Assembly: GCA_001803565.1 (NCBI GenBank)
Contig: MHDQ01000262.1
Coordinates: forward strand, 1 to 8,745
Length of the DNA: 8,745 nt
Origin: Nitrospinae bacterium RIFCSPLOWO2_12_FULL_45_22
Lineage (GTDB): Bacteria > 2-12-FULL-45-22
Direction of reading: 5' to 3'
The notes below the pieces were generated by a model. It saw only the letters and a list, made by a program, of their open reading frames with translations, did not search any database and was not told the origin of the DNA. Of this stretch, positions 1 through 8,745 are shown one piece after another; within the stretch, counting starts at the first letter, position 1; each line of letters opens with the position of its first letter. A program made the position numbers and the translations under genes.

Positions 1-77
1 TATTCCTCGCTTCCAAAGACTCGGATTTTATCACGGGTCAAGTCCTGGTTGTAGATGGTGGTGTTTGGCTGAGATAG
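1..77 (+). CDS. Short-chain dehydrogenase/reductase, C-terminal end only (partial)
   Basis: The frame that is open from the left edge (first full codon at 3) reads FLASKDSDFITGQVLVVDGG and then VWLR before TAG at 75-77. This is the standard C-terminal end of classical SDR enzymes (3-oxoacyl-ACP reductase-like): an LAS.xx..ITGQ segment followed by a V.DGG strand near the cofactor and subunit interface. Family members are NAD(P)H-dependent cytosolic oxidoreductases acting on an alcohol/ketone pair. The catalytic Ser-Tyr-Lys and the Rossmann glycines lie outside the window, so substrate and cofactor choice cannot be judged. The stop is 11 nt before the next start codon, which puts this gene in the same transcription unit as the flavoprotein that follows. 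Confidence 0.85.
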   Translation, partial: FLASKDSDFITGQVLVVDGGVWLR

Positions 78-88
78 GAGAAGCACGG

Positions 89-1726
89 ATGGCGGATGCG
101 ACTTATGATGTGGTGATAGTGGGTGGAGGAAACAAAGCGCTAATTGCCGCTATGTATTTAACCAAGTATGGCGGATTGAGTGTGGGCATTTTTGAGGAAA
201 AACATCAGTTGGGCTCAGGCGGTTGGTGTACCGAGGAAAGCCCGGCGCCTGCTTTTCTGGCCAATCACTGCTCAAGCTGGCATAGCCGTGAGTATCATAC
301 CCTCGTTTATGAGGATTTCCCGGAGTGGGAAGAGTACGGAGCTAAACAAATTGACCATACACTTAATTTTGGGGTTATTTTTGAAGAAGATGATTCATGC
401 TGCGCGACATATAACTCGAACATAGACCCTACTCAAGAGAAAACTGCTCAGTTATTTGCTAGGTTTTCAGAGAGAGACGCCGAGAAGTGGCTACGACTTT
501 GGGATAAGGTGGAAAAATACTGGCGTCCAGCTTTGAGGGAATGGGCCTGGAACCCCGCTAAGCCTTTCGGTGAGATGGACGGTATGGATAAGCTGATATT
601 CAACCGAGAAGGCGGGATAAACCCTCAATGGACGGTCATGACCTATCCTGCGGTGTTAGCCGAGCTATTCGAGTCTCCTGAAATTCAAATGACATTTGCC
701 AGGATTTTTCAGTCAATGGGCATTCCACCTGATGCCTACGGGGGTGGTTTTAATCTCATAGGGGCGCTAGTCATAGCCAGCGCCGCCTGCACATATGTAG
801 GCGGAGTCCACGCTTTGGTTCACGCCTCGCATAGAGTTATCTGGGAAAATGGAGGTAAATCCTTTACCCAGAGCAAGGTGGACAAAATCATTATCGAAAA
901 CGGCAAGGCTAAAGGGATACGTCTAGCAGATGGCACCGAGATCGAAGCTAAGCTAGCTGTGCTTTCCGGGGTCGATCCGCACCAGCTCTGCTTGGAACTC
1001 ATAGAGGAAAACTATCTCAGTGGTGAAATCATCAGCAAGATCAAGAGGCTCGAACGGGACTGGACTACGATAACCTGGTACACATGGGCTCTTCGTGAGA
1101 GGCCTCGCTATAAAGCCGAGAGCTTCCTTCCCGAGATATATCAGAACCCTTCTTTGCATTTGGGGAATAAGTCCCTGGATAACATATTCGACGAAGTTCA
1201 TAGGAGGAGGATGGGACTCTGGCCTGATCCAGCCAAGATCAACATCTTAGTCATTGACCACTCATATCTTCCCTGTGGTTACGCTCCATCGGGTATGGCT
1301 GCTTGCCTGACCGAGGAATGGGTTCTTCCTGCTCATCTCCATGATGAACAGTGGTGGAAGGAGAGAGAGAAACTTCATGCTGAGGAGGTTATCAACCGGT
1401 GGCAAAAGTCTGCCCCCAATATGACCTGGGATAACGTTATCGGTTATGTGCCGATTACTCCTTTCTTTATATCCAGGCATAGTAGGACTTGGGGCCCTGC
1501 GGGCAATTGGGCTTGCATAGACAACAGTCCTTCTCAGGTTGGTAGATGGAGACCAATACCGGAGCTGGCAGGACACAGGATGCCCATAAAGAACCTGTAT
1601 GCTACCGGGACTGCCTGGCATCCTGCGGCTAATGCTTGGAGTTGGCAAGGTTACAACGTGTACAAGGTGATGGCAGAGGACCTTGGTCTCCGGAAGCCGT
1701 GGGAGGAAAAGGGGCGGCCTTACTAA
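89..1726 (+). CDS. FAD-dependent oxidoreductase, phytoene-dehydrogenase-like (COG1233 type), 'oxidoreductase A'
   Basis: A 545-residue flavoprotein. The N-terminus YDVVIVGGGNKALIAAMYL is an FAD-binding beta-alpha-beta fold, ending in an acidic residue (IFEE) and a G-S-G-G motif, as in the CrtI/phytoene dehydrogenase-like superfamily. The third Rossmann glycine is replaced by Ala (GGGNKA, residues 12-17). The C-terminus has the second FAD contact, Y-A-T-G-T-A-W-H-P near residues 504-511, but followed by AANAWSWQGYN instead of the usual run of glycines. Length is a little above typical CrtI proteins (about 490-520). I chose ATG 89 because AGGAG lies at 76-80, 8 nt upstream; an upstream in-frame TTG at 65 has no Shine-Dalgarno and overlaps the SDR. 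The family acts on many hydrophobic substrates besides carotenoids, and nothing nearby suggests carotenoid synthesis, so the reaction is open. The 3' end recurs as a broken copy before oxidoreductase B. Confidence 0.9.
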   Translation: MADATYDVVIVGGGNKALIAAMYLTKYGGLSVGIFEEKHQLGSGGWCTEESPAPAFLANHCSSWHSREYHTLVYEDFPEWEEYGAKQIDHTLNFGVIFEEDDSCCATYNSNIDPTQEKTAQLFARFSERDAEKWLRLWDKVEKYWRPALREWAWNPAKPFGEMDGMDKLIFNREGGINPQWTVMTYPAVLAELFESPEIQMTFARIFQSMGIPPDAYGGGFNLIGALVIASAACTYVGGVHALVHASHRVIWENGGKSFTQSKVDKIIIENGKAKGIRLADGTEIEAKLAVLSGVDPHQLCLELIEENYLSGEIISKIKRLERDWTTITWYTWALRERPRYKAESFLPEIYQNPSLHLGNKSLDNIFDEVHRRRMGLWPDPAKINILVIDHSYLPCGYAPSGMAACLTEEWVLPAHLHDEQWWKEREKLHAEEVINRWQKSAPNMTWDNVIGYVPITPFFISRHSRTWGPAGNWACIDNSPSQVGRWRPIPELAGHRMPIKNLYATGTAWHPAANAWSWQGYNVYKVMAEDLGLRKPWEEKGRPY

Positions 1727-1804
1727 ACGGTAGCCAACAACTCAAAAGAGGAAAGGCAAACGATCAGGCCGTACAGCATCATTATAGGCGGGGGGCCGAA
1801 AGGG
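1577..1804 (+). repeat. Direct repeat, left copy: junction of oxidoreductase A 3' end and a dead oxidoreductase B 5' end
   Basis: This stretch matches 6903-7132 in the same orientation. By hand: 1577-1623 against 6903-6949 is 34/47; then a one-base gap; 1631-1726 against 6956-7051 (the last 31 codons of A plus stop) is 84/96; the 33-nt spacers 1727-1759 and 7052-7084 are equal in length and 16/33 identical; the start region of B is 32/45 with one codon missing on the left. Overall about 169/227, or 74%. In this copy the A half is coding and intact, while the B half is decayed. Confidence 0.82.
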
Positions 1805-1813
1805 ATGATGCAA
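1760..1813 (+). pseudogene. Decayed 5' remnant of an oxidoreductase-B-like FAD gene
   Basis: In the frame beginning at 1760 the DNA reads T-I-R-P-Y-S-I-I-I-G-G-G-P-K-G-M-M-Q. This lines up with the start of oxidoreductase B (M-M-R-Q-Y-D-I-I-I-I-G-G-G-P-N-G), identical at R, Y, three Ile, GGGP and the final G, with one Ile codon missing. The position of the start codon is ACG, so the remnant has lost its initiator. It sits exactly 33 nt after the stop of oxidoreductase A, the same spacing as between the A remnant and the real B. The nucleotide match to B (32/45) is clearly better than to the GGR-like gene that follows, which also starts with a Rossmann fold. The frame stays open to TAA at 1919, but I see no convincing homology after about 1813. 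Confidence 0.7.
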
Positions 1814-1896
1814 AATCAAGCGATGGCCCCTGATTGTAGGAAAAATGTGGAGTGGGTGAAGAGGAATTATCGCTTTTGCTGTAAGAGGCCTGGGAG

Positions 1897-2976
1897 ATGG
1901 GAAAAATTTATCCCGTTATAATCGTAGGTGGTGGACCTGCAGGTTCGAGTTGCGCGAAAGCTTTAATCGACGCTGGAGTAGATGTCTTGGTGCTGGAAAA
2001 GATGAGACTTCCGAGGCACAAATGTTGTTCCGGCATTCTTTTTGGCCAGGCACAGGAATTACTTCGCAGGTATTTCGGAAAACTTCCTCCTGAAAGCGCA
2101 TATTGTAGCCCAAGAGTTATTCACGCCTCCAATATTTTGGCATGGAGCGAAGAAAAAGGACCTTTTGTATACGAATGGGAGCTCCCGATGGCAGGCAGGA
2201 GCTTTACTACCAGCTATCTAAATGTATGGAGAAACAAGTTTGACTTCTGGCTTTTAAAAGAATCCGGTGCACAGATAAAAGACGGCCTTATCTTCCGCGA
2301 TTTTTCTAGCAGTGGCGATAAGATTAGGGTGGCGGTGCAGAGTGGTGTGAGGAGAACCGAACTCCTGTGTTCCTACCTTGTTGGGGCTGATGGAGCTAGT
2401 TCAGCTGTTAGGGATATTTTCGACTCCTCTTACAAAAAGAGACTGAACGAACTCTCAACTTATCAGGCATACTACACGTTTTCCGATCTGGGAAACCTTG
2501 AGAAAAGTCATTGGTATGTCTTTTTGGGACTTATTGGCGGCCCAGTGGCAACCGTTCATAAAAAAGACGATGTACTGACTCTTTGTGTGGGGAGTTTTGA
2601 AAAGAAGGGGAGCCTCAAGGGGCTAATGAAGCGCTTTGAAGATTTCCTCTCAAGCCGATTTAAGGTCAAGCTGCTTGAAAAGCAGAGGAGCGAAGGCTGC
2701 CTGATAAACGATATGAATTTGAGAGGGGATTTCTGTCTGGGTGGGGGAAGAGTGTTTCTTGTGGGCGACGCGGCCGGTTTCATGTACCTGAACGGGGAAG
2801 GCATCAGCGTTGCTATTGATTCGGGTTATAGGGCCGGGAAAGCCATTGCAAAAGGATTGAAGGGTAAAGGAGAGGCCTGGGACCTATATCGTAGGGAGAC
2901 CGAAGATATTAGAGAGCAAGTGAAACTTTGCGCAAGCAAACAGACCCTCATTGGGCGTCCCGAAGGAACGACGTAA
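1897..2976 (+). CDS. Geranylgeranyl-reductase-family FAD oxidoreductase
   Basis: A 359-residue flavoprotein of the FixC/geranylgeranyl reductase group, related to p-hydroxybenzoate hydroxylase-type enzymes. Three FAD signatures occur in order: the Rossmann motif VIIVGGGPAGSSCAKAL (residues 7-23) with E34 closing the second strand; G-A-D-G at 163-166; and FLVGDAAGF followed by NGEGISVAIDSG (residues 287-310), the GD motif that holds the flavin ribityl chain. The R-x-K-C-C-S-G-I segment (40-47) matches the Cys/Gly loop after the FAD domain in this family. Members reduce isoprenoid double bonds or carry out other alkene reductions and dehydrogenations; the substrate here is unknown. Start ATG 1897 has AGAGG at 1884-1888, 8 nt upstream. 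No transmembrane segment is obvious. The frame remains open for 56 codons immediately after the TAA stop (see the small ORF that follows), so a slightly longer ancestral product is possible. Confidence 0.88.
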   Translation: MGKIYPVIIVGGGPAGSSCAKALIDAGVDVLVLEKMRLPRHKCCSGILFGQAQELLRRYFGKLPPESAYCSPRVIHASNILAWSEEKGPFVYEWELPMAGRSFTTSYLNVWRNKFDFWLLKESGAQIKDGLIFRDFSSSGDKIRVAVQSGVRRTELLCSYLVGADGASSAVRDIFDSSYKKRLNELSTYQAYYTFSDLGNLEKSHWYVFLGLIGGPVATVHKKDDVLTLCVGSFEKKGSLKGLMKRFEDFLSSRFKVKLLEKQRSEGCLINDMNLRGDFCLGGGRVFLVGDAAGFMYLNGEGISVAIDSGYRAGKAIAKGLKGKGEAWDLYRRETEDIREQVKLCASKQTLIGRPEGTT

Positions 2977-2979
2977 AAG

Positions 2980-3147
2980 ATGAAAGACTCAGTTGTGAAA
3001 CTATCAAGTGGGAGAGATAAGATTCTCATTAGTTGTGTATATATCAGTCTCACACTTTTCTCTAAGCTTGCCAGGGGTGGGGCCCAGCGGAAGCCGTTGC
3101 CATGGATAATACCCTGGATCAGGCAGATAGAGGATACCGGAACCTAA
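2980..3147 (+). CDS. Possible small ORF (55 aa), in frame with the GGR-like gene
   Basis: ATG at 2980 begins 3 nt after the stop of the GGR-like gene and in the same frame, and stays open for 55 codons to TAA 3145-3147. The product begins MKDSVVKLSSGRDKILISCV, continues with a short hydrophobic run (ISCVYISLTLF), a basic patch (KLARGGAQRK) and a Pro/Trp-rich end (PLPWIIPWIRQIEDTGT). I do not recognise it. AAGGA at 2963-2967 is 12 nt upstream, so ribosome binding is only passable. It may be a real small protein, the former C-terminal tail of the flavoprotein cut off by a nonsense codon, or chance: a 56-codon open frame is not very unlikely. Confidence 0.3.
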   Translation: MKDSVVKLSSGRDKILISCVYISLTLFSKLARGGAQRKPLPWIIPWIRQIEDTGT

Positions 3148-3154
3148 ACTGGGA

Positions 3155-3174
3155 TGCCATATGAGAATATGGCA
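3155..3174 (+). promoter_or_regulatory. Perfect 8-bp inverted repeat with GAGA loop directly before the hydroxylase RBS
   Basis: TGCCATAT-GAGA-ATATGGCA is a perfect 8-bp stem closed by a GNRA-type tetraloop. Its last base is the first base of the AGGAG Shine-Dalgarno (3174-3178) of the FAD subunit gene. No T-run follows, so it is not an intrinsic terminator. It could be an RNA hairpin that controls translation or protects the 5' end of the hydroxylase message, or the operator of a dimeric repressor. The structure is read directly from the sequence; its role is inferred. Confidence 0.5.
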
Positions 3175-3185
3175 GGAGCCGAAGG

Positions 3186-4058
3186 ATGATGAAGAATTTT
3201 GAATATCTCGCCCCTAAAACGGTTAAGGATGCCCTCACTTTGCTAGCTGGGGACCAGGGCGACAGCAAAGTAATCGCTGGCGGACAATCATTACTTTTAC
3301 TGATGGGGCACGGGCTGGTCACACCAAAGTATCTCATCGATATTAAAGGAATCTCCTCTTTAAACTATCTTCAAAAGACTCAGAGCGGGCTAGAGATTGG
3401 TTCTCTGACCACGCACCGGAGTGTAGAGACCTCCCCATTAATACGCAACGGATTTTGCGTACTGGCCCAGATGGAAGGCGCCTTGGCCTCATTGGAAACC
3501 CGGAACTGGGGTACTCTGGGGGGTAACGTCTGTCACGCTGACCCCAAAGGAGATGTTTGCCCCGTGTTAATTGCACTGGGTGCGAAGGTGAAGATGATTA
3601 GCCTGCGTGGAGAGCGGACTATGGCAGTTGAGGATTTTTCCACCGGTTATTTTGAAACTGCCCTCAACCCCGATGAGCTGCTGGCTGAAATTCAGGTGCC
3701 GAATCCAGCACCGAGGACAGGCACTGCCTATCACAAATTTACCATGATAGAAGGAGACTACGCCATTGTGTCGACAACGGTATCAATCACCCTCGATGCA
3801 AGCAATGAGAAGTGTAAGGATGCTCGCATAGTGCTGGGTGCGGTAGCCCCGGCGCCCATGAGGGCTAAGCGGGCAGAAAAAGTTCTGGTGGGCAGGGAGA
3901 TTAAAGATAGTTTACTGCAAGAGGCTGCCCAAATAGCTTCAGAGGAGGCGGAGCCGGTATCTGACATGCATGCCTCCGACGAATACAAAAGGGAGCTGGT
4001 CAAAGTCCTGGTAAAGCGGGTAGGCAAAGAGGCTCTGGAAAAGGCTGGTATGGCTTAA
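3186..4058 (+). CDS. Molybdenum hydroxylase FAD-binding subunit (CoxM/XdhB family)
   Basis: A 290-residue medium subunit of a xanthine dehydrogenase/CO dehydrogenase-family enzyme. It passes electrons from the 2Fe-2S subunit to FAD and on to the acceptor. The two FAD-binding signatures of the vanillyl-alcohol-oxidase-like fold are present: AGGQSLLLLM (residues 31-40, usually AGGQSLLPLM) and RNWGTLGGNVCHADPKGD (residues about 107-124; the usual form is RN.GT.GGS..HADP..D). The length equals that of ordinary medium subunits. There is no room for the roughly 40-residue insertion with an extra 4Fe-4S cluster that marks 4-hydroxybenzoyl-CoA reductase beta subunits, and the four cysteines I count are scattered. 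ATG 3186 has AGGAG at 3174-3178, 7 nt upstream; a second ATG follows at 3189. The Fe-S subunit gene starts 26 nt after its stop. Confidence 0.93.
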   Translation: MMKNFEYLAPKTVKDALTLLAGDQGDSKVIAGGQSLLLLMGHGLVTPKYLIDIKGISSLNYLQKTQSGLEIGSLTTHRSVETSPLIRNGFCVLAQMEGALASLETRNWGTLGGNVCHADPKGDVCPVLIALGAKVKMISLRGERTMAVEDFSTGYFETALNPDELLAEIQVPNPAPRTGTAYHKFTMIEGDYAIVSTTVSITLDASNEKCKDARIVLGAVAPAPMRAKRAEKVLVGREIKDSLLQEAAQIASEEAEPVSDMHASDEYKRELVKVLVKRVGKEALEKAGMA

Positions 4059-4084
4059 TTTCCTCGCCTGGAGAAAATTTAACC

Positions 4085-4561
4085 ATGATAACAAAGGACT
4101 TAAGCATAACCATAAACGGGAAGCAGTACCGGTTATCGGTTGGAGCCAGGACACTCCTTGTAGACCTGTTAAGGAACGACTTAGAGCTAACCGGCACCAA
4201 GGTGGCCTGCGACAGTGGCTCCTGTTTGGCCTGCACTGTCCTTGTTGATGGCAAGGCGGTCAAATCGTGCTCAATATTGGCGCTCCAGGTAGATGGCAGG
4301 AGTGTCCTGACAATTGAAGGTCTGGCGAATGGGGACAAGTTACACCCAATCCAGGAATCCTTTGTCAAAAATCATGGACTTGCCTGTGGCTACTGCACGC
4401 CGGGAGTGATTATGTCGGCTAAAGCGCTACTGGACGAAAATCCCAGCCCGACTGAAGACGAGGTCCGGCATGTCATATCTGACCATCTGTGCCGCTGCGG
4501 CGCGTATCCTAAGATTGTCAAGTCAGTACTGGAAGCTGCAGAAATAATGAGAGGTGAGTGA
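4085..4561 (+). CDS. Molybdenum hydroxylase 2[2Fe-2S] subunit (CoxS/XdhC family)
   Basis: A 158-residue small subunit carrying two 2Fe-2S clusters between the molybdenum site and FAD. The N-terminal plant-ferredoxin-type cluster is ligated by C42, C47, C50 and C62 (GTKVACDSGSCLACTVLVDG...SC). The C-terminal helical-domain cluster is ligated by C101, C104, C136 and C138 (HGLACGYCTPG ... HLCRCGAYPKI). All eight ligands are present, so the protein should be functional. Three neighbouring residues deviate: A41 where Gly is usual, L48 where Gly is usual (C-G-A-C in most relatives), and A100 where a Gln normally precedes the Cys contacting the molybdopterin side (QCGFCTPG). GGAG at 4070-4073 lies 11 nt before the ATG. 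The stop TGA (4559-4561) is separated by one base from the ATG of the large subunit, which suggests coupled translation. Confidence 0.95.
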   Translation: MITKDLSITINGKQYRLSVGARTLLVDLLRNDLELTGTKVACDSGSCLACTVLVDGKAVKSCSILALQVDGRSVLTIEGLANGDKLHPIQESFVKNHGLACGYCTPGVIMSAKALLDENPSPTEDEVRHVISDHLCRCGAYPKIVKSVLEAAEIMRGE

Positions 4562-4562
4562 A

Positions 4563-6884
4563 ATGGAGCTATCGGCTATTGGAAAACGGGTGGCATTGGA
4601 GGACGCTTATGAGAAGGTTACCGGGAAGCTCAAATTCGCCGTGGATATCAGCTTGCCCGGGATGCTGCATGCCAAGGTGCTGAGGAGTCCTTATGCCCAT
4701 GCCAAGATAGTTAATATTGATACCCGCAAGGCTGAAGCGCTGCCTGGCGTGAGGGCAATAATTACCCATAAAGATGTCCCGAAAGAGGAGTGGATGGAAT
4801 TATGGCTTAACTATTACGGGCGGGTAATAGATGACAGAGTGCGTTTTGTTGGCGACGAGGTGGCAGCAGTAGCGGCTACAAGCATAGATGTGGCTGAAGA
4901 AGCGCTAAGCCTGATAGAGGTTGAATATGAAGAGCTGCCTCATGTCTTTGATTTAGAAGAGGCCATGAAGCCTGATGCACCTCAGGTGTCGCCTTATGGG
5001 AACGTAAGAGAGCCCACAATTGTAGAGTGGGGTGATATAGAACAGGGCTTCAAAGGCGCAGACCTGATAGTAGAACACAAGACCAGGGCAGGTTCTCAGC
5101 AGCATGCACCGGTCGGTCTCAATGCCTGCATCGCTACCTGGGAAGGGGACAAGCTGACTATCTGGACCTCCGCTCAGTCAGTTTTTGAAATCCGTGATGT
5201 TATGGCGCGCTATCTGAAGATGCCCATGAGTAAGGTCAGGGTTATTGGTCTGCCTACTGGTGGCTCCTTCGGCCTGTTCTGGCTCAATAACTTCCATTTC
5301 ATCCCGGTGTTTCTCGCCAGGAAAGCCGGGAAGCCAGTTAAGCTGGAACTCACCCGGGAGGAGATTTTCTCTACCGTTAAAAGACGGGAGATATGTATGA
5401 CCTCGGTTAAACTGGGAGTCAAGAGGGATGGCACTTTCACCGCGATACATATGAAGCACTACTGGGAAAATGGGGCATATGGGTTTAAGACTAATCCATA
5501 CGAGACTATGAGTGACCTGTGGGTGAGAAACCTAAAACATGGGAAGTTTGAGTTCCACGGCGTGTCCACTAATCTCTGTACTGCTGGTTGTATGAGGGGG
5601 GTTGGAGATCTGGTGCAGGACTTTTGTATGGAACAAGCCATAGATAAGGCCGCAGAAAAGCTGGGAATGGGCCCACTGGAGATAAGGTTAAAGAATCACA
5701 GCCGCGCCGGCGACCCGCAGCGTGCGGATGTCCCCTTTTATCAGTGGGCAAAACTAGCTCGGCCAGAGAAGACCTTGTCCAGCAGTGGTATGGATAAATG
5801 TATCAAGGAAGGTGCTAAGGCGATAGGATGGCAGGAGAAGTGGAAGGGGTGGGGTCAACCCACAGAGGTTAACGGTTCGAAGAGACGAGCCATTGGTATG
5901 GCGGTATCCAGTCATTGTTCCGGGCAACGGTATCTGGGCACTTCCTCGGTTACTGTCAAGGTCAATCAGGATGGGAGTGTTAATCTCTTCACCGGCGCGG
6001 GTCGCATGGGGCAGGGAATGGAGACTACCCAGGCTCAAATTGTAGCTGAAGTTTTGGGAGTACCAGTAGAAAGCATCAAGGGGACTCACGGGGACACTGA
6101 GGTATGTCCCTGGAGTGTGGCAACCGTGGCTAGCATCAATGCCCACCAGACCGGTGTGGCTACCCAGGCAGCTGCCGCTGAGGCTAAGCGGCAGGTCTGT
6201 GAGTTAGCTAGTAAGGAGCTAGGCGCGAAGCCGGAGGACATAGACATCAAGAAAGGTGTGGTCTTTGTAAAAGGCCATCCCAAAAGATCTATCCCATTTG
6301 CTGATCTGACTGCCAAGATAGACCCTGAGACTGGGACTTGGCCTACTATCATAGCCAGTGCCTCGAAAAGCATCCCTCACAGCCCGGTTGCCAGGTTTTA
6401 TATGGCTCACTTCGCCGAAGTTGAAGTGGATACCGATACCGGCAAGGTGAAAATATTAAGATACGTGGCCGTCCACGACAGCGGCAGGATAATAAATCCC
6501 AGCATCTGCGAAAATCAGGTGGTATCCGGAGTGCTGCAGGGCTGTGGCTTTGCACTGGGTGAAAGGTTGGTCTTCGACGAGAACACGGGGCAGATCCTCA
6601 ACCCGAACTTCACTGACTACAAAATACTTAAAGCGCTGGACGTGCCAGACCCTGAAGTTATCTTCGTGGAAGAGATTGACCCTGTGGGTACGTTTGGGGC
6701 GAAGGGGATTGGTGAAGGAACCGTCTGTCCCTGTGCGGCTGCGCTGGCGCAGGCCATTTACAATGCAACTGGCGTGGAATTTAATGCCATACCATTTACT
6801 CCTGAGATAGTGTTTAGAGCGCTGAGAAGCGGGGTAGCTAAGGATGCAGATGAATCCAGATACCACGTAGCATATCTTAATTAA
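4563..6884 (+). CDS. Molybdenum hydroxylase large subunit, molybdopterin-binding (CoxL/XdhA family, atypical)
   Basis: A 773-residue catalytic subunit binding the molybdopterin-cytosine-dinucleotide-type cofactor. It has the N-terminal 'a/b hammerhead' domain (VTGKLKFAVDI, LRSPYAHAKI, PGVRAIITHKDVP, DRVRFVGDEVAAVAA) followed by the two cofactor-binding domains. Visible signatures: TGGSFG (232-237; usually GGGFG.K, with the Lys absent here), C-M-R-G-V-G-D (343-349; relatives have A-Y-R-G-A-G-R), GQGMETTQAQIVAEVLGVP (from 483), and GAKGIGEG with the conserved catalytic Glu E718. The CO dehydrogenase form I loop AYRCSFR is absent, and so is the form II AYRGAGR, so this is a hydroxylase or dehydroxylase for an organic substrate, not a CO oxidiser. 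I chose ATG 4563, preceded by GAGGTGA (4551-4557), over an in-frame GTG at 4554 that has no good Shine-Dalgarno and overlaps the small-subunit gene. Chaperone and sulfurase genes are not in the window. Confidence 0.93.
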   Translation: MELSAIGKRVALEDAYEKVTGKLKFAVDISLPGMLHAKVLRSPYAHAKIVNIDTRKAEALPGVRAIITHKDVPKEEWMELWLNYYGRVIDDRVRFVGDEVAAVAATSIDVAEEALSLIEVEYEELPHVFDLEEAMKPDAPQVSPYGNVREPTIVEWGDIEQGFKGADLIVEHKTRAGSQQHAPVGLNACIATWEGDKLTIWTSAQSVFEIRDVMARYLKMPMSKVRVIGLPTGGSFGLFWLNNFHFIPVFLARKAGKPVKLELTREEIFSTVKRREICMTSVKLGVKRDGTFTAIHMKHYWENGAYGFKTNPYETMSDLWVRNLKHGKFEFHGVSTNLCTAGCMRGVGDLVQDFCMEQAIDKAAEKLGMGPLEIRLKNHSRAGDPQRADVPFYQWAKLARPEKTLSSSGMDKCIKEGAKAIGWQEKWKGWGQPTEVNGSKRRAIGMAVSSHCSGQRYLGTSSVTVKVNQDGSVNLFTGAGRMGQGMETTQAQIVAEVLGVPVESIKGTHGDTEVCPWSVATVASINAHQTGVATQAAAAEAKRQVCELASKELGAKPEDIDIKKGVVFVKGHPKRSIPFADLTAKIDPETGTWPTIIASASKSIPHSPVARFYMAHFAEVEVDTDTGKVKILRYVAVHDSGRIINPSICENQVVSGVLQGCGFALGERLVFDENTGQILNPNFTDYKILKALDVPDPEVIFVEEIDPVGTFGAKGIGEGTVCPCAAALAQAIYNATGVEFNAIPFTPEIVFRALRSGVAKDADESRYHVAYLN

Positions 6885-6902
6885 CGACCCGGGAGATGAT
6901 AG

Positions 6903-7051
6903 AGGATTCCAACGAAAAGCCCGTACGCCACCGGGACCTCCTGACATCTGCATCGAATGCTTGGAGCCGGGAAGGTTACAACGTCTACAAGGTAATGGCG
7001 GAGGACTTTGGTCTCAAGAAGCCGTGGGAGGAGAAGGGGCGACCATACTAA
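6903..7051 (+). pseudogene. Broken 3' remnant of a second copy of oxidoreductase A
   Basis: The frame from 6950 reads A-S-N-A-W-S-R-E-G-Y-N-V-Y-K-V-M-A-E-D-F-G-L-K-K-P and on to W-E-E-K-G-R-P-Y, then TAA at 7049. The last 31 residues are 27/31 identical to the C-terminus of oxidoreductase A, and the DNA is 84/96 identical. Further left, Y-A-T-G-T-S matches A's Y-A-T-G-T-A, but the following Trp codon has become TGA (6942-6944) and one base is lost just after the His codon, at about 6948-6950. Only the last 50 or so codons remain and there is no start codon. Seven of the eleven changed codons in the well-preserved part are synonymous, so the copy seems to have been a working gene for some time before it was truncated. 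Confidence 0.85.
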
Positions 7052-7132
7052 GCGACGGCCCAGAGCTGGAGAACTAACGGGCTAATGATGAGACAATATG
7101 ACATCATAATTATTGGCGGAGGGCCAAATGGG
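6903..7132 (+). repeat. Direct repeat, right copy: dead oxidoreductase A 3' end and intact oxidoreductase B 5' end
   Basis: This is the partner of 1577-1804. The alignment runs without gaps from 6956 to 7111 at a constant offset of 5325, including a spacer of exactly 33 nt, and continues after a one-codon gap to 7132. Left of 6950 the offset is 5326, reflecting a one-base deletion. The copy begins within about 20 nt of the stop codon of the large hydroxylase subunit, so one edge of the repeat coincides with the edge of the hydroxylase module. Confidence 0.82.
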
Positions 7133-8713
7133 CTCGTGGCAGGCGCTTACCTTGCAAAGGCTGGGCAAAAGGTTTTGGTTCTGGAGCGGAGATTTGAGAT
7201 GGGAGGTGGGCTTGCTACCGAGGAAGTGATAGGTACACCTCGCTTTTACGCTAATACCCACGCCATTTACATGACGATGGCGGATTACGCACCGGCTTAC
7301 CAAGACCTGGAGCTTGAGAAGTCTTACGGTCTAAAGCATTTGTACCCTTCATTGCAGTTCGCTATGCCACTTCGAGACGGAAGATGTCTATGCCTCTATG
7401 CTAACCTGGATAAAAGTTGTGATTCGATAGCTCGGTTTTCCGAGGAGGATGCCAATACGTATAGGGATATTTATCATAAATATAAGCGCTACGTAGATGA
7501 GTTTATAGCTCCAGCAACTTACGTTCAGCCATTGTCCGTCATCGAGCAGGCGGCGAAATTGGAAGAGAGCGAAATTGGAAAAGAAATAAGCGAGCTGGCA
7601 GAGCTTACACCCCAGGAGATAGTGCACAGTCTCTTCAAGAACGAGTATGTCAGGAGTATGATGCTACATGTTGCTTGTTTCTGGGGGTTAGATCCTGAGC
7701 AGGCAGGATTAGGTTATCTTGTTCCTCTTTTTGTGAACCGGGCCACCAACTATCGGATTTGTGTGGGTGGCTCTCATATGCTCGCACAAGCTCTTATCAA
7801 GGTGATCCTGGCAAATGGAGGGGAACTAAGGACTGGAGTAGTGATCGAGCGCATCAGAGTAAAGGACGGAGCGGCGACGGGCATAGAGATGGATGACGGC
7901 AGAGTCTACGAAGCGTCCAAGGCTATAATCAGCACCATCGATACTCATCAAACCTTCCTGAAACTTATCGGCGAAGAGAACCTAGAGAAGGATTTTGTTG
8001 AGTCGATCAAGATGTGGCAGTGGGAACATTGGAGCTTTCTAGGTATCCATCTGGCGCTGGATGAAGCACCAAGATTTACCGCAGCTAAGGCTGATCCAGT
8101 AATTAACAGCGCTTTGATTTATATATTGGGATGTGAGACCTCGGAGGAGTTTATAGATCACTACCGGGCTATAAAAAGGGGCGAGATGGACGAGAAAGCA
8201 TGCGTCACTTTTTCTGTCCCCAGTTTACATGATCCGAGCCAAGCGCCAGCGAGTAGGTATACTGCGGTCATTCATCAAATGGCGCCTTACAGCCTGAAAG
8301 AAGGAACTGAAAAGTGGTACTCCCTCAGATTCAAACAGGAGCAGTTCCAAAGAACATTGAGAATCCTTCAGAGATATGCTCCCAACATGACGCAGGACAA
8401 GGTAAGGAACTATTACATCTCCACGCCGCTGGATGTTGAGAATAAGTTCCGCAATATGGTGCAAGGGTCGATCAAGCAAGGGCAGTACCATCCGTTGCAG
8501 ATGGGATTTATGCGTCCAAATGAATACTGTTCGGAGCATCGGTCGTCTATAAAGCGCCTTTATATGGGAGGGGCATGCACTTATCCGGGTGGAACGGTGC
8601 TCTTGGGACCTGGCTATCTAGCGGCCGATGCTGTCTGCGAAGATCTGGCCATAGAGAAGTGGTGGCGCGAGCCGGAGATGGTAGTGAGGGCTCGCCAGAA
8701 GGGATTACTCTAG
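7085..8713 (+). CDS. FAD-dependent oxidoreductase, phytoene-dehydrogenase-like (COG1233 type), 'oxidoreductase B'
   Basis: A 542-residue flavoprotein and distant paralogue of oxidoreductase A. It has a canonical N-terminal FAD motif, YDIIIIGGGPNGLVAGAYLAK (GGGPNG at residues 11-16), E34 of VLVLERR at the end of the second strand, and a GGGLATEE loop. The C-terminal FAD contact is L-Y-M-G-G-A-C-T-Y-P-G-G-T-V-L-L-G-P-G, close to the GA.THPGG...G.G pattern of CrtI-like enzymes, and unlike the altered version in A. A middle domain with many charged helices (RFSEEDANTYRDIYHKYKRYVDEF) probably forms the substrate region. Expected to be cytosolic or membrane-associated and to act on a hydrophobic substrate, which is not identifiable. 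ATG 7085 is followed by another ATG at 7088; the only Shine-Dalgarno candidate, GGAGA at 7068-7072, is 12 nt away, which is weak. The gene ends TAG 8711-8713, overlapping the ribosome binding site of the next gene. Confidence 0.9.
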   Translation: MMRQYDIIIIGGGPNGLVAGAYLAKAGQKVLVLERRFEMGGGLATEEVIGTPRFYANTHAIYMTMADYAPAYQDLELEKSYGLKHLYPSLQFAMPLRDGRCLCLYANLDKSCDSIARFSEEDANTYRDIYHKYKRYVDEFIAPATYVQPLSVIEQAAKLEESEIGKEISELAELTPQEIVHSLFKNEYVRSMMLHVACFWGLDPEQAGLGYLVPLFVNRATNYRICVGGSHMLAQALIKVILANGGELRTGVVIERIRVKDGAATGIEMDDGRVYEASKAIISTIDTHQTFLKLIGEENLEKDFVESIKMWQWEHWSFLGIHLALDEAPRFTAAKADPVINSALIYILGCETSEEFIDHYRAIKRGEMDEKACVTFSVPSLHDPSQAPASRYTAVIHQMAPYSLKEGTEKWYSLRFKQEQFQRTLRILQRYAPNMTQDKVRNYYISTPLDVENKFRNMVQGSIKQGQYHPLQMGFMRPNEYCSEHRSSIKRLYMGGACTYPGGTVLLGPGYLAADAVCEDLAIEKWWREPEMVVRARQKGLL

Positions 8714-8722
8714 GAGGAGCGG

Positions 8723-8745
8723 ATGACGGATCTCAGAGAGTTTAT
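8723..8745 (+). CDS. Start of the next gene (partial, unidentified)
   Basis: ATG at 8723 begins M-T-D-L-R-E-F before the window ends. A strong Shine-Dalgarno, AGGAGG at 8712-8717, lies 5 nt upstream and overlaps the stop codon of oxidoreductase B, so this is very likely a real gene in the same operon. Seven residues are too few to identify the product. Confidence 0.6.

Follow-up and report, generated by a model that had tools for sequence, protein, structure and literature searches.

A diverged direct repeat of a flavoprotein gene junction as the probable scar of two operon copies

Two flavoprotein genes resembling phytoene dehydrogenase, termed A and B, lie 5.4 kb apart in the DNA analysed here, called the window, which is a complete contig (C262) of 8745 bases from a 3.67-Mb metagenome-assembled genome (MAG), 85% complete in 321 contigs. 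Their junction occurs twice, on either side of a gene for a geranylgeranyl reductase (GGR)-like protein and three molybdenum (Mo) hydroxylase genes, and in each copy one of the two partners is dead. The locus therefore raises the question of how this repeat arose, and of whether the four genes between its copies were acquired as a unit. The repeat probably marks where two A-B operon copies once lay in the same orientation and underwent reciprocal loss, and what looks puzzling then becomes a readable history, a two-subunit enzyme rebuilt from two half-dead operon copies. A and B are 29% alike, and match carotenoid ketolase/desaturase models with scores far below the cut-off. All features are given in Table 1.

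Table 1. Features of the window, with coordinates, strand and the basis of each assignment.
Feature	Position	Strand	Basis or remark
SDR (short-chain dehydrogenase) gene, 3' end	3..77	+	translation FLASKDSDFITGQVLVVDGGVWLR*; SDR adjoins A in G230 and G181
A, FAD oxidoreductase, phytoene-dehydrogenase-like alpha-type subunit, intact	89..1726	+	ORF; NCBIfam CrtO E 1e-37, far below cut-off
A 3' end, left repeat copy	1577..1726	+	repeat alignment
Left A-B spacer and decayed B start	1727..1772	+	shuffle test
B 5' remnant (IIIGGGPKG), left copy	1773..1804	+	26/32 with 7101-7132
Scar between B remnant and GGR-like gene	1805..1896	+	weak, non-significant likeness to UbiD C-terminus
GGR-like FAD_binding_3 flavoprotein	1897..2976	+	PF01494 2.7e-20; TIGR02032 102 bits
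Mo hydroxylase FAD subunit	3186..4058	+	PF00941, PF03450
Mo hydroxylase 2Fe-2S subunit	4085..4561	+	PF01799, PF00111
Mo hydroxylase large (Mo) subunit	4563..6884	+	PF20256, PF02738, PF01315
A 3' remnant (pseudogene), right copy	6903..7051	+	TGA and 1-nt deletion; closest to the window's A
Right A-B spacer, 33 nt	7052..7084	+	coordinates
B, FAD oxidoreductase, beta-type, intact; 5' start is right repeat copy	7085..8713	+	ORF; CrtO-like E 2.9e-65
Next gene, beginning MTDLREF and truncated by the contig end; probably a UbiD-family (de)carboxylase	8723..8745	+	UbiD after B in relatives

The repeat and the state of its copies

Self-comparison of the window by blastn gave one significant match, 1577-1804 with 6903-7132 in direct orientation, in which 172 of 231 columns are identical (74.46%, E 1.2e-36; runner-up E 0.2), and a separate repeat search returned the same pair as the longest direct repeat. 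The alignment made by hand in the original prediction (about 169 of 227 identical) is thereby confirmed at the same coordinates. The A coding part at 1623-1726 matches the right copy at 89 of 104 positions without gaps, and the homology reaches past the A C-terminus, since the agreement of the two B starts (Table 1) was equalled in 0 of 1000 dinucleotide shuffles. The left fragment is specific to B, with a score of 34 against 12 for the GGR start and 10 for the A start; the shuffles and these scores ruled out that it is a Rossmann motif arisen by chance or derives from the start of GGR or A. An aligned spacer of equal length (33 nt) had also been proposed, but the distance from the A stop codon to the common ACA is 46 nt on the left and 49 nt on the right, a difference of 3 nt, and the spacer by itself could not be aligned between the copies (610 and 999 of 1000 shuffles equalled it). 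Both outer edges of the homology are sharp: 796 of 1000 shuffles were as good as the match upstream of 1577/6903, and 335 of 1000 as good as that downstream of 1804.

The copies have decayed in complementary fashion, as had been predicted, with A alive and B dead on the left and the reverse on the right. The open reading frames of left A and right B are uninterrupted. The right A remnant has an in-frame TGA at 6942-6944, at the place of a Trp codon (RIPTKSPYATGTS*H versus RMPIKNLYATGTAWH in left A), followed by a 1-nt deletion that shifts the frame. The left B remnant, with the translation RPYSIIIGGGPKG, is without its ATG and one codon short, and nothing is kept beyond the GGGPxG motif. The scar behind it and the gap at 2977-3185 gave no signal as further A or B remnants. 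On comparison of the scar with 379 tails, the UbiD C-terminus was best at the protein level (score 33) and nothing was found at the DNA level; if the scar were a UbiD C-terminus, the order would be A1-B1-UbiD-GGR. The gap, 209 nt from the GGR-like gene to that of the Mo hydroxylase FAD subunit, holds no recognisable content.

The longest exact run shared by the copies is 15 nt, which makes a k-mer assembly artefact unlikely. An artefact of assembly or a strain chimera, conceivable in that the window is a single contig of an incomplete MAG in many pieces, is very improbable given this short match, the independent decay of each copy and the genes in between, all intact and of host-like composition. 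With no more than 15 identical bases in a row, recA-dependent excision across the repeat should now be inefficient, and from this poor recombination the split of A and B in the window is probably stable.

Comparison of the A tails gave a dN of 0.085 and a dS of 0.68 over 34 clean codons, with 13 nonsynonymous and 15 synonymous changes over 49 codons. When the right copy was simulated as neutral from birth and the left as constrained, a nonsynonymous fraction this low was obtained in 0.4-1.7% of matched runs (six settings, P 0.004-0.017, about 0.01; the test rests on 49 codons). The dead A tail probably diverged largely under purifying selection, and by this codon pattern the right A was probably once a working gene, in the window's genome or in a donor. 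If it was functional for some time, a duplication created by the insertion itself becomes less likely. The earlier argument from divergence against a recent target-site duplication holds in the same way, amino-acid changes being too few for neutrality; a repeat of 230 nt, diverged and of coding origin, is moreover unlike the target-site duplication of an insertion element, and the window has no transposase, terminal inverted repeats or short perfect duplication. Partial segmental duplication, by which an A-B junction fragment of a few hundred bases was copied and the cluster rearranged with never two complete pairs, would fit the sharp ends and the mere 230 nt or so of homology left. Such a fragment would have been neutral from birth, yet the A tail is short of amino-acid changes, and complete double pairs are carried by relatives (below); this origin is judged quite unlikely.

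A-B pairs in relatives

Homologs of A with 39-54% identity were found in several genomes of one phylum, taken to be Desulfobacterota, to which the Deltaproteobacteria MAG JAFDIX (G098) belongs. At five loci in G230, G296, G101 and G546, A is directly followed by B, with spacers of 19, 19, 23, 35 and 21 nt. Relatives with an uninterrupted A-B pair, looked for as a check on the original prediction, thus exist in four Desulfobacterota genomes, and A directly followed by B is supported as the old arrangement. A and B are farther apart in G181 and G486, and the order is B-then-A in another group.

Relatives with two complete A-B pairs were found as well: in direct orientation around a GGR relative in G546, in direct orientation in G230 and in divergent orientation in G181. 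On contig C27 of G546 the genes A1, B1, UbiD, a broken AOR (aldehyde ferredoxin oxidoreductase), two small ORFs, a GGR relative (50%), A2 and B2 follow one another on a single strand; Pfam verified UbiD, AOR and, at one end of the contig, the SDR gene. Contig C2 of G230 carries A, B, UbiD and a GGR relative (52%) in this order, preceded on that strand by a pair of the other subtype ordered B-SDR-A. UbiD follows B in the G230 and G546 pairs. These two clusters (L113/L114 and L088/L069, respectively) share with the window the direct double A-B pairs, UbiD and a GGR relative (50-52%), and differ from it in that both pairs are intact, no Mo hydroxylase trio lies between them and, in G546, AOR is present. 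One of the two divergent A genes in G181 is decaying: at L072 4037-5631 it has in-frame stops and a frame change next to an intact B, the second pair being intact. G230 has almost identical A-B pairs at two loci far apart (L071 on C1 and L088 on C2), a recent duplication of the pair. In JAFDIX (L032, JAFDIX010000580.1, 2-3059), two tandem A-type genes of different subtypes are 52 nt apart.

In the tree, A and B form two sister clades. The window's A falls in a clade with seven A genes from G098, G230 and G546, and its B in a clade with five B genes from G230 and G546, with support of 100/99 in both cases. Within its clade, the window's A is nearest to a branch of G098 and A2 genes (support 92/90). 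Topology tests rejected its grouping with the A2 genes of G230/G546 alone (p 5e-23), did not reject its grouping with A1 (p 0.13), and placed the window's B decisively with neither G230/G546 subtype; the window copies as direct orthologs of the A1 and A2 types of G546 and G230 thus received no support from the trees. The right A remnant is nearest to the window's own A (amino-acid score 163 versus 119 for the next, DNA score 74 versus 38) and is thus a copy of it. This grouping means that the duplication is lineage-specific, or that the copies were homogenised by gene conversion.

Reciprocal loss and the genes in between

The proposed history starts from an ancestor with A1-B1 and A2-B2 in direct orientation. 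One deletion would have taken B1 apart from its 5' end, together with whatever lay behind it, and another would have taken A2 apart from its 3' end; these two ends would persist as decaying fossils. The survivors, A1 and B2, would still give a full pair, now with the GGR-like gene and the Mo hydroxylase trio between them. We infer the order of the losses and the simple nature of the deletions. If A and B are subunits of one heterodimer, the cell needs one of each. This history corresponds to the first of two originally offered, that of two tandem pairs with the inner B and inner A lost, and is well supported by the pairs of relatives; such pairs do duplicate, as the two G230 loci show. Against it stand the difference between the window's duplication and the A1/A2 duplication of G546/G230, and a repeat of only 230 nt with an anatomy that Campbell integration gives too. 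Among the 2 genomes of the window's phylum in the comparison set, none has both pairs intact. The process resembles duplication-degeneration, i.e. reciprocal loss after tandem operon duplication, in that complementary halves survive from two copies, and differs in that two subunits of one enzyme survive here from different copies and flank other cluster genes. It is mostly ordinary genome wear, for which the intact double-pair clusters of other bacteria serve as comparison.

The second history was a Campbell-type single crossover, by which circular DNA with the Mo genes, with or without the GGR-like gene, and a diverged A-B junction entered a single A-B locus. It predicts the exact anatomy seen, A whole and B truncated on the left, A truncated and B whole on the right, and a tail divergence under selection could date from the donor. 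Nothing points to it beyond this anatomy. The window has no integrase, transposase, replication gene or terminal repeat, GC content and codon usage equal those of host genes, GGR relatives already neighbour A-B elsewhere, and a remnant closest to the resident A would demand a near relative as donor. The crossover is considered unlikely.

The further proposal that the four middle genes are one acquired module was not upheld. Their GC content is 0.47-0.52, against 0.483 +/- 0.023 for 29 genes on four other contigs, and their codon-usage distances fall within the range of those 29 host genes, although old transfers would escape these comparisons. In G230 and G546 the GGR relatives (50-52%) are part of A-B clusters, and in G101 and G049 they are not. 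The GGR-like protein scored below the TIGR02032 cut-off of 158.8 bits, and is not assigned to geranylgeranyl reductase. The FAD, 2Fe-2S and Mo domains of the Mo hydroxylase are on three adjacent genes, with Pfam scores above the cut-off on all three; against NCBIfam, no equivalog was obtained at its cut-off for any subunit. The nearest solved structure for the large subunit is 4-hydroxybenzoyl-CoA reductase (1rm6), and its nearest relatives are about 36-43% alike and dispersed (20 genomes searched, same-genome paralogs included). Mo hydroxylase genes of another subfamily are near A/B in G356, G335, G472 and G428. A search of a plasmid collection gave no DNA match and, by protein, only homologs of 24-26% among the matches listed. 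Of the middle genes only the Mo hydroxylase trio could be a newcomer, and it may instead be an old partner.

Elsewhere in the window's genome (G000), several UbiD genes accompany RND-like and benzoyl-CoA-reductase-like genes on C5 (L109) and C231 (L111), two contigs with an apparent overlap in a UbiD gene. C5 was considered as the continuation of the window's UbiD and rejected, because by translation its truncated UbiD appears to run on into C231.

Flavin site and predicted function

Limonene dehydrogenase CtmAB of Castellaniella defragrans is a heterodimeric enzyme of two phytoene-dehydrogenase-like flavoproteins, 27% alike and encoded by adjacent genes, and in database searches both CtmA and CtmB matched a deltaproteobacterium best (PMC4109377). 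The sterol delta-24 desaturase of Sterolibacterium is likewise a flavoprotein heterodimer, with covalent flavin on the His of G-F-L/R-x-N/S-T/L-H-A (PMC11061730). Compared by the described plan of CtmAB, A and B are similarly a pair of distantly alike flavoproteins, distinct and adjacent in relatives, of which the window keeps remnants of adjacency. The relatives' clusters also hold apparent DUF1302, DUF1329 and RND-type genes, called by eye from ORF starts with no domain search, which recall monoterpene efflux genes (PMC6394551). The anaerobic benzene 'Magic' cluster (PMC13101534), considered for its DUF1329, was set aside since none of its described proteins resembles A or B. The window differs from CtmAB in the split of the pair, in the UbiD, SDR and Mo hydroxylase genes present instead, in the lack of a ctmE/ctmF-like ferredoxin pair, and in the Cys of A at the expected flavin-linking His.

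The window's B resembles the sterol desaturase in its flavinylation motif RFYANTHA (FYANTHA, His59), and the aligned His is present in all rows of the B clade. A differs, reading AFLANHCS; its FLANHCS has Cys at the position, as do the alignable rows of its clade, for which reason A is not filed as a CtmA member. The Mo enzyme of the sterol pathway is a C26 sterol hydroxylase, which by description is set apart from the three-subunit, xanthine-dehydrogenase-type enzyme of the window.

By analogy with these enzymes, A and B may together form one flavin heterodimer, and the predicted enzyme may oxidise a terpenoid or another cyclic compound without the use of oxygen. A tentative possibility is that the split A/B pair, the GGR-like protein, the Mo hydroxylase and UbiD act in an undescribed pathway, likewise independent of oxygen, that activates a terpenoid or other cyclic hydrocarbon in a poorly sampled lineage, with the alpha flavin Cys-linked or freed. 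In itself A/B has an interesting history and is no new kind of system. The comparison flags an uncharacterised group of flavoprotein pairs like CtmAB in Desulfobacterota, associated with genes for UbiD and aldehyde ferredoxin oxidoreductase, in which one subunit has either His or Cys as its flavin anchor. Judged from the aligned residues, this exchange at the putative covalent flavin site is recurrent, with His or Cys in other A lineages and His kept in B. Cys for His in A occurs at 254-274 of the window and in L032, L069-L071, L113, L114 and L080-L087, the B-then-A group included.
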